Positions 152 through 1,651 of a stretch of 7,253 nt of DNA are shown in pieces. The notes under the pieces were generated by a model. The model did no database searches. It had not been told where the DNA came from and saw only the letters and a program-made list of their open reading frames with translations. A program made the position numbers and the translations under genes. The stretch's first letter is position 1, and each line of letters opens with the position of its first letter. This stretch comes from a bacterium (GTDB taxonomy: Bacteria; UBP15; UBA6099; DSWB01): NCBI GenBank assembly GCA_020061125.1, contig JAGUYV010000455.1, forward strand, positions 1-7,253. Direction: 5' to 3'.

Positions 152-280
152 CGCAGATCGCATGCCCTTCTTGCTTGCGCACCCTGCACGGGCGGCTCGC
201 CTTGGGTCCCCCTTAGAAAAGGGGGATCAAGGGGGATGTAAAACCGCTCTGCCCAGCCTATAATGACCGCATGAAGCTCT
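152..280 (+). repeat. Direct repeat copy 2, upstream of and into the DUF559 gene
   Basis: This copy joins two matches. Positions 152-243 align with 999-1090 (88 of 92 identical by eye), and 196-280 align with 1-85 (84 of 85). The core at 205-242 holds a hairpin with 8-base arms TCCCCCTT and AAGGGGGA around AGAA (211 is inside the left arm), followed by a second AAGGGGGA that could pair instead. To the left, 180-194 can form a second, imperfect hairpin around TGCAC. The repeat ends inside the coding region, so it supplies the upstream region and start codon of the nuclease gene. A more weakly matching extension reaches back to about 128. Confidence 0.9.
259..264 (+). promoter_or_regulatory. 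Consensus -10 box directly before the DUF559 start codon
   Basis: TATAAT at 259-264 ends six bases before the ATG at 271, so transcription would begin at or next to the start codon and give a leaderless or nearly leaderless mRNA. No Shine-Dalgarno sequence is visible in 259-270, which fits that reading. No good -35 hexamer stands at 16-18 bases upstream, because that place is occupied by the end of the palindromic repeat. The same box is carried by the duplicate at 64-69. Function is inferred from position and consensus only. Confidence 0.4.
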
Positions 281-651
281 ACTACAATTCAAATCTCAAG
301 ATGCGCTCACGCAAACTGCGAAGCGGCGGCACGCTTGCAGAAGTGCTCCTCTGGAACAAACTCAAAGCGCGCCGGTTCCTTGGCCTCCAATTCTACCGCC
401 AGAAACCTATCGGCAAGTACATTGCCGACTTCTATTGCAAAGAACTGGACCTTGTGATCGAAGTGGACGGTTCCTCACACAGAGACAGGTACGAGTACGA
501 CGCAACCCGCCAGGCCGCGCTCGAAGCTCTGGGGTTGGCGGTGCTCCGGTTCGAAGATGAACAGGTGAGAAAAGGCATGGACAGCGTTCTCAAGACGCTG
601 GAGGTGTGGGTGGAAGAAAAACGCGGCGCGGTCCACGACGCGCGGGAATGA
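271..651 (+). CDS. DUF559 (Vsr-like PD-(D/E)XK) endonuclease domain protein
   Basis: This 126-residue protein is a complete DUF559 domain, a family related to the very-short-patch-repair (Vsr) endonuclease fold. The visible family pattern is an N-terminal K-L-R then T-x-A-E-x-x-L-W helix (E24), the F-Y-R-Q-K-P-I-G segment (41-48), the catalytic-type Asp in I-A-D-F-Y-C (D53), the E-V-D-G pair (E64, D66) with H70, the Y-D-x-x-R segment (76-80) and the V-L-R-F strand (91-94). The length is normal for the family and nothing appears truncated. The likely activity is metal-dependent DNA cleavage, but the substrate and biological role of stand-alone DUF559 proteins are not established. The gene has no visible ribosome site, has a TATAAT box just before its ATG, and is bracketed by oppositely oriented copies of one palindromic repeat (205-242 and 684-721). 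That arrangement suggests a small mobile or repeat-associated unit. Family assignment is firm; function is inferred. Confidence 0.9.
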   Translation: MKLYYNSNLKMRSRKLRSGGTLAEVLLWNKLKARRFLGLQFYRQKPIGKYIADFYCKELDLVIEVDGSSHRDRYEYDATRQAALEALGLAVLRFEDEQVRKGMDSVLKTLEVWVEEKRGAVHDARE

Positions 652-683
652 CACGGCGGTGGGGGGAGATTTGCGAAGCAGAG

Positions 684-721
684 TTTACATCCCCCTTGAT
701 CCCCCTTTTCTAAGGGGGACC
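684..721 (-). repeat. Inverted copy of the palindromic repeat core
   Basis: Positions 684-721 are the exact reverse complement of the 38-base core at 205-242, so the DUF559 gene lies between inverted copies. The hairpin arms are AAGGGGGA and TCCCCCTT with a 4-base loop. Downstream on the + strand there is no T-run, so it is not a convincing intrinsic terminator for the nuclease gene, although an RNA hairpin here would still end or stabilise the transcript 3' region. Similarity stops at both ends of the core; the longer arms seen in the forward copies are absent. Confidence 0.92.
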
Positions 722-1130: not shown

Positions 1131-1160
1131 TTGAATTGTGGTAATTATTGATTCTACAAT
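1131..1160 (+). promoter_or_regulatory. Candidate sigma-70-type promoter for the exported repeat protein
   Basis: TTGAAT (1131-1136) and TACAAT (1155-1160) are separated by 18 bases and match the -35 and -10 consensus at 4 and 5 of 6 positions. The predicted transcript would start near 1167, just ahead of the AAGGGG ribosome site. The whole stretch is AT-rich, so a chance match is possible. Confidence 0.45.
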
Positions 1161-1171
1161 TGAATAATTAC

Positions 1172-1177
1172 AAGGGG
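1172..1177 (+). promoter_or_regulatory. Ribosome binding site that fixes the start at 1184
   Basis: AAGGGG ends six bases before ATG 1184. The alternative upstream TTG at 1148 has no such site and overlaps the candidate -10 box, so it is rejected. Confidence 0.7.
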
Positions 1178-1183
1178 CAAACA

Positions 1184-1651
1184 ATGAAAAACACTTTTAT
1201 TTGTTTTGCTATGATTATTATGATGATGTTAGCTACACCAGTAAAGACTCAGCAATATCAAATGCCACCAAAAATTAAAAAGCTCATCAATGACTACACA
1301 TTACAAGAGCTGCAAATAGGTTTAGTATTAAAATTATCTACCCTGAACGGGTGTTCTATTTTCAGTAGTGAGGCAAAGCCAGTATTTTTGGGTATCATTG
1401 CAAATTCTACAGTAACCAATAGTATTTTCAATTCTTACGGAACATACGGTTCAAAATATTCATCAAACAGCATTTGGAACAGCTACAGTTCTTACGGAAG
1501 TAAATATGGTAATACAAGTGCATTCAACGACATGGCAACATCACCCCCGATGATAATTTGTAAAGAATCAGTTGTTGGATATTTAACGACTAATCAAACC
1601 AAATCAGGGGCAGTTAATCCGAATTTACTTATGTTTGCATTTGACAATTAA
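1184..1651 (+). CDS. Small exported protein with tandem N-S-I-x-N-S-Y-x-x-Y-G-S-K-Y repeats, function unknown
   Basis: The product is 155 residues from ATG 1184. Residues 1-22 form a signal peptide: M-K-N, then a hydrophobic stretch rich in I and M, then A-T-P. Residues 79-94 and 95-110 are two 16-residue units, N-S-I-F-N-S-Y-G-T-Y-G-S-K-Y-S-S and N-S-I-W-N-S-Y-S-S-Y-G-S-K-Y-G-N, followed by a partial third (T-S-A-F-N). I recognise this as a pattern seen in many short secreted bacterial proteins of unknown function, usually after an N-G ... L-G segment (here N55-G56 and L69-G70) and before a Y-L-T-x-N ending (here about 134-138). It may form a repetitive, aromatic-rich surface fold, but no activity can be assigned. 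Two 60-base lines I counted inside it have 30-32% GC, against about 80% in a line of the dehydrogenase gene downstream, which suggests horizontal acquisition. It stands alone, with repeats on its left and a chromosomal metabolic gene on its right. Confidence 0.8.
   Translation: MKNTFICFAMIIMMMLATPVKTQQYQMPPKIKKLINDYTLQELQIGLVLKLSTLNGCSIFSSEAKPVFLGIIANSTVTNSIFNSYGTYGSKYSSNSIWNSYSSYGSKYGNTSAFNDMATSPPMIICKESVVGYLTTNQTKSGAVNPNLLMFAFDN

Follow-up and report, generated by a model that had tools for sequence, protein, structure and literature searches.

Repeats of the REP/RAYT type (REPtrons, REPINs, BIMEs; TIRYT/TIRtrons, PMC3733652) are organized around a single small enzyme gene that lies between inverted palindromic repeats. 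Gene-less copies occur singly, in pairs and in arrays, and each enzyme lineage has its own repeat family. The units built around DUF559 genes that are described here share these properties. They differ in their enzyme, a Vsr-like PD-(D/E)XK nuclease instead of a Y1 HUH transposase (no PF01797 domain was found in the unit), and in their repeats, which have a triplex-type third strand. In the window, i.e. the whole stretch of 7,253 nucleotides analyzed, the arm carries no GTAG/CGTC tag and the neighbor of its stem is a mirror purine tract.

A second type of dispersed repeat, the intrastrand triplex motif (TM), was formerly named PIT and was reportedly studied in earlier work by Maher and Hoyne. 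Like the arms of DUF559 units, TM_ECO/PIT motifs consist of a pyrimidine tract, a loop, a purine tract, a short loop and a mirror purine tract, and they are dispersed, at times as inverted pairs, with copy numbers that are highly variable among strains (PMC4666352). TM_ECO was found by others to form a triplex in vitro (PMC4666352). Holder 2015 tied the motifs to local instability, described no gene function connected to them, no transposase or integrase remnants and no mobility gene nearby, and left their mechanism and origin as unanswered questions (PMC4666352). In contrast to the motifs as published, those described here bracket DUF559 genes and co-vary with them.

With respect to the enzyme, EDxHD homing endonucleases (I-Bth0305I, 3r3p) and Vsr have the catalytic domain fold and sequence profile in common with DUF559, and a link between DUF559 and the EDxHD homing family is already in the literature (PMC9403480). 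Unlike these relatives, the DUF559 gene is free-standing between repeats, without an intron, an intein or an extra DNA-binding domain. DUF559 is the first gene that we find connected to these triplex repeats, which are widespread in bacteria, E. coli included, and had been regarded as orphans. In the open-access literature, we found neither this link nor the repeat sequences of the window or of Bacteroidota in a relevant context.

Layout of the unit and its copies in the genome

The window corresponds to contig 34 of a genome of 4.1 Mb (79% complete, 513 contigs). The 38-mer GGTCCCCCTTAGAAAAGGGGGATCAAGGGGGATGTAAA is present in forward orientation at positions 10–47, 205–242 and 1052–1089, and as the exact reverse complement at 684–721. 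The following features were assigned:

150–770, + strand: complete repeated unit, from the left end and left triplex repeat through the DUF559 gene to the right triplex repeat and right end, delimited by end-to-end alignment with contig 14
205–242, + strand: left arm, a 38-nt tripartite (triplex-type) repeat with its tail gene-ward, CCCCCTT-AGAA-AAGGGGG-ATC-AAGGGGG
271–651, + strand: gene of the DUF559 Vsr-like PD-(D/E)XK nuclease, 126 aa (PF04480, E=2e-33)
684–721, − strand: right arm, the left 38-mer in exact reverse complement (100% complementary), tail gene-ward
1–85, + strand: truncated second unit with triplex repeat 10–47, 5' leader and first DUF559 codons, 99% identical to 196–280
999–1098, + strand: detached left end with triplex repeat 1052–1089, gene-less, matching the 150–250 region, contig 303 and contig 14

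The initial annotation had described a PD-(D/E)XK nuclease gene as the sole coding content between inverted 38-base palindromic cores, and both the exact inversion of the arms and the single gene between them were confirmed. The arms are no simple palindromes, however, as each is composed of a pyrimidine tract, a purine tract and a second purine tract. Similarly, the bracketed unit is real, but its limits had been set too narrowly at 205–721. Forward repeats do exist at the two sites that had been regarded as solo copies; the first is part of the truncated unit at 1–85 and the second, which is indeed gene-less, belongs to the detached left end. A DNA hairpin of −8.9 kcal/mol (z −3.3) was calculated for the left arm.

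We counted 24 occurrences of the core TCCCCCTTNNNNAAGGGGGA in the genome and none of the backward control, and chance can therefore be dismissed as its origin. A second DUF559 gene with the same bracketing, 88% identical to the first, was found on contig 14. Positions 150–770 of the window align with this contig end to end (~87% over 622 bp) and the similarity stops at both ends; on contig 303, where a third DUF559 start follows a left arm before the contig ends, it likewise begins at position 150. These shared boundaries indicate a discrete unit that extends ~50 bp beyond each 38-mer. Furthermore, contig 410 carries a decayed repeat followed by apparent first DUF559 codons, and contig 363 contains another DUF559 gene without arms.

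Most gene-less repeats on contigs 64, 71, 210, 308, 367, 420, and 455 of the same genome (L021–L029) are arranged as pairs 220–520 bp apart. The pairs are mostly tail-out, opposite to the DUF559 unit and unlike the miniature units of Mucilaginibacter described below, which counts against a mobile element. Two further repeats of ~97 bp (92–93% identical) lie inside tail-out pairs (L028:745–840 / L029:1433–1529 and L023:1529–1626 / L022:1567–1663); they are possibly other miniature elements, unrelated to the triplex repeat. An orphan ORF at window positions 1148–1651 has a signal-like start and a Ser/Tyr/Asn-rich segment, and gave no match in Pfam and NCBIfam. The Rfam search of the window returned no match and no exact copy of the window repeat was present in viral contigs. 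Six genomes of the same order (other families) yielded no strong stand-alone DUF559 match and one palindrome in total.

The nuclease and its arms across phyla

The AlphaFold model of the window protein (pLDDT 89) is closest in structure to NGO0050 (3hrl) and the catalytic domain of I-Bth0305I (3r3p), and more weakly to Vsr (1vsr). The match to 3r3p was obtained by sequence profile (E 2e-4) as well as by fold (6e-4), and the sequence profile also reaches 3hrl. Residues D53, E64, D66, H70, and D77 are invariant in 46 relatives. Profile, fold match and invariant residues thus place the protein with the Vsr/EDxHD catalytic fold. Between the copies in the window and on contig 14, dN was 0.067 and dS 0.44; the resulting dN/dS of 0.15 indicates purifying selection on the nuclease protein.

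Inverted arms were scored as present when the inverted-repeat score between the flanks was at least 14; in the sample of 60 genomes described below, shuffles did not exceed 13. Scanning species genomes provided 80 DUF559 loci, 79 of which were scored; 54 of these had inverted arms, compared to 10 of 752 other ORFs of the same contigs. In 60 genomes that had not been selected for repeats, nearly all of them outside the order of the window, arms were found at 11 of 17 loci, the loci of the window's own genome being excluded. When paralogues and other loci were added, 79 of 122 stand-alone DUF559 genes (65%) from many phyla had inverted arms. Had the genes mostly lacked repeats, the unit proposed from the window would have been in doubt; the opposite was seen in both sets. 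The ~35% without clear arms, which include the gene on contig 363, count against a mobile element.

The arm sequences vary by lineage (TTCCCCTCTTGAGAGGGGTTAGGGGTGTG, GTCCCCTTGAGGGGACTTTAGGGGTGT, TCCCCCTTTGAAGGGGGCAGGGGGATG, and others). Most of them share a common plan of a hairpin, a short loop and a third G-rich tract facing the gene, from which a few high-scoring arms deviate. This plan matches that of intrastrand triplex motifs (TM/PIT, class II purine), with a C-rich stem, a G-rich stem, a short loop and a mirror G-rich tract. Over 156 arms, the agreement of the third tract with the mirror image of the purine stem was 0.882 (A and T interchangeable), whereas shuffling of stems between arms gave a mean of 0.784 and a maximum of 0.804. 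The third-strand mirror rule was followed at 85% or more by 115 of the 156 arms. By sequence type, the arms are G/C-rich class II intrastrand triplex motifs, with triplex formation in cells being putative.

Individual loci illustrate the range of contexts. At L129:1689–2317, a DUF559 unit is located between ftsA-like and ftsZ-like genes. At L206 (G070 contig 73:8640–10148), a BIME-like alternating array of ~187-bp units extends on both sides of the gene. The genome of Pontibacter fetidus (G085; L133 and other loci) has eight DUF559 matches with bracketing arms of several sequence types, each similar to the arms that accompany the nearest nuclease elsewhere in Pontibacter.

Covariation of nuclease, arms and dispersed copies

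Protein similarity and arm similarity were correlated (Mantel rho 0.418; permutation maximum 0.18), and the correlation persisted among distant pairs, with similar proteins removed. Additionally, arms were shuffled among the paralogues of one genome, by which the host is held constant. The maximum was then 0.34–0.36 and none of 1999 permutations reached the observed rho, so the arms follow the nuclease and not the host. Two traits of REP/RAYT systems are found in DUF559 units: the enzyme gene lies between inverted copies of a palindromic repeat that is also dispersed, and, by these Mantel tests, the repeat family is matched to the enzyme lineage.

The tripartite pattern was dispersed in 23 of 28 DUF559-bearing genomes with up to 281 copies, a count somewhat inflated by overlapping matches, compared to 0–3 per genome for backward controls. 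DUF559 matches numbered 1–8 per genome, versus tens to hundreds of gene-less repeats. At least four copies of CCCCTCTTGAGAGGGG were present in 28 of 30 Mucilaginibacter genomes with a related nuclease clade and in 6 of 31 without it (p=2.5e-9); the bit-score cut-off for this clade was set after viewing the list, and a stricter cut-off left the direction unchanged. On a tree of 58 Mucilaginibacter genomes, the table of repeat abundance against nuclease read 28/2/4/24 (28 of 30 vs. 4 of 28), and in 10 phylogenetically independent pairs ~8 agreed and none opposed (median p 0.008). Both arm sequence and copy number thus track the nuclease, where independence of the two would have spoken against the initial annotation. 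Many repeats without a matching nuclease (58 copies in genome G104, 31 in G118) count against a mobile element.

Vertical co-inheritance of the unit and its repeats would reduce the similarity of nuclease and arms to mere linkage without a functional relation. Linked DNA co-varies by default, and orthologous loci such as Pontibacter L078/L133 do contribute to the correlation. We consider this explanation very unlikely, as the correlation survives the removal of close pairs and a constant host, and, across phylogenetically independent pairs, unlinked dispersed repeats vary in copy number with the nuclease.

Even less probable is that the arms, being stable hairpins near both gene ends, simply serve the gene as bidirectional terminators or as regulatory hairpins of an ordinary kind. 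No T-run follows the arms, and PIT/TM motifs had neither promoter nor terminator activity (earlier work cited in PMC4666352). Identical inverted arms that are specific to a lineage, tens to hundreds of dispersed copies and filled as well as empty sites are not expected of terminators. This candidate was rejected based on the missing T-run, the dispersal and the covariation.

The REPtron-like geometry of the unit raises the question of whether RAYT/Y1 transposases mobilize the repeats with DUF559 as a passenger, and Y1_Tnp genes were indeed present in 22 of 24 genomes searched. However, neither the tripartite repeat nor its main hairpin types occurred within ~1.5 kb of any of 30 Y1_Tnp loci, several of which carry other inverted repeats of their own. 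Moreover, two genomes without a Y1_Tnp match (G062 and G075) contain 83 and 124 repeats, respectively. The 30 loci and these two genomes led us to discard RAYT as the mobilizer, an assumption that is now barely credible.

In E. coli, the DUF559 gene ycjD was found in ~3361 of 5426 genomes. A TM_ECO-type repeat lies 3' of ycjD (L279), with no left arm, and in one strain (L279) the 3' end of the gene is a decayed or reversed triplex motif. Among 59 chromosomes, the median number of region-matching places was 25 with ycjD and 11.5 without it (p=5e-9), a suggestive difference that is confounded by phylogroup. The locus was also considered as a clean empty/filled site and rejected, since in three ycjD-less strains sapF is followed by efflux genes, i.e. 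the locus has been replaced. Due to the confounding and the missing left arm, E. coli provides supporting but weaker evidence for the link of DUF559 to triplex motifs.

Filled and empty sites and the nature of the unit

Pairs of filled and empty sites, which the initial annotation had asked for, were found in Mucilaginibacter together with deletion derivatives and TM-only sites. In the engB/ubiA-like interval of 58 genomes, 14 had repeat-DUF559-repeat, 4 repeats only and 29 neither, and 11 were not scorable; at many empty sites, the genes are <20 bp apart. The filled state requires 13 changes on the tree, at least 8 of them on well-supported branches, which represents at least eight gains or losses of the unit, either direction being possible. 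At one locus (L153), apparently an internal deletion derivative, the two arms are retained along with short stretches that resemble the first and last nuclease codons, and another (L140) has one arm left. At L138, L152, and L162, engB reads into the left triplex repeat and has its stop codon there; the end of this host gene thus comes from the element. Two Mucilaginibacter genomes contain many units of ~90–108 bp in which two arms face inward across a short spacer.

Internally deleted copies that keep both ends, such as L153, and short paired units are also known from MITEs and their autonomous partners. In contrast to MITEs, the DUF559 system has no transposase, and no target-site duplication was evident by eye at the Mucilaginibacter junctions or the miniature units. 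Nor was an integration signature established, and both points count against a mobile element.

A domesticated, structure-specific enzyme could instead maintain or repair the repeats by nicking extruded triplex or hairpin DNA, with dispersal resulting from replication slippage and recombination; the arms would then be an autoregulatory or self-protecting site of the nuclease. The instability reported near triplex motifs (Holder 2015, PMC4666352), triplex motifs only on the 3' side of E. coli ycjD and the strong purifying selection on the nuclease are in line with this possibility. On the other hand, complete units, paired miniatures and cleanly empty sites are traces of an element, and a fixed repair gene need not carry its own bracketing repeats at unrelated sites. 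We therefore regard maintenance as unlikely.

The window itself is, with fair probability, an autonomous copy of a selfish repeat-nuclease element, i.e. a REP/RAYT-like system of autonomous and non-autonomous copies based on a homing-endonuclease-like nuclease. Orthologous sites differ in whether they carry a related unit, none at all, an internally deleted unit or a single repeat. The repeats of a unit are of the type matching its own nuclease, and genomes that bear this nuclease contain dispersed gene-less repeats of the same type. Purifying selection on the nuclease, its fold, which resembles I-Bth0305I and Vsr, and the third-strand mirror rule of the arms also favor this reading. The initial proposal of a RAYT/REP-like mobile or repeat-maintaining unit was supported, and none of the three outcomes that would have argued against it (repeats independent of the nuclease, nuclease genes mostly without repeats, no filled and empty site pairs) was encountered.

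We infer that it is the nuclease that cuts the repeats and brings about their spread. This relative of EDxHD homing endonucleases and of Vsr nicking enzymes would recognize its own repeat when folded as a hairpin or triplex, extruded or single-stranded, and would nick or cut it, probably at replication forks. Repair of the break by copying another copy of the unit would amount to homing between dispersed repeats; alternatively, the break might be joined in an error-prone manner, and units would be gained, moved or lost. Internal deletion could give rise to paired-repeat miniatures and solo repeats, on which the nuclease would act in trans. PD-(D/E)XK nucleases have no DNA-joining activity; a unit could insert at a new, non-homologous site only with the help of host repair, which counts against such an element. 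More tentatively, we propose a new class of mobile elements, in which free-standing homing-type DUF559 nucleases may generate intrastrand-triplex repeats, disperse them and drive their turnover, in each case by cutting the folded form.

DUF559 is a common protein family that is still named "unknown function". Its link to the repeats provides the nuclease with a candidate substrate that varies with the nuclease sequence, and the repeats with a candidate enzyme. If the proposal is true, DUF559 (ycjD in E. coli) would account, as the agent so far lacking, for the triplex motifs found in E. coli, cyanobacteria, Bacteroidota, and others, and REP-like dispersal would have evolved at least twice, on unrelated catalytic chemistry. 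E. coli K-12 has both a DUF559 gene and ~23 triplex repeats, which makes the question accessible to tests in a standard laboratory strain.
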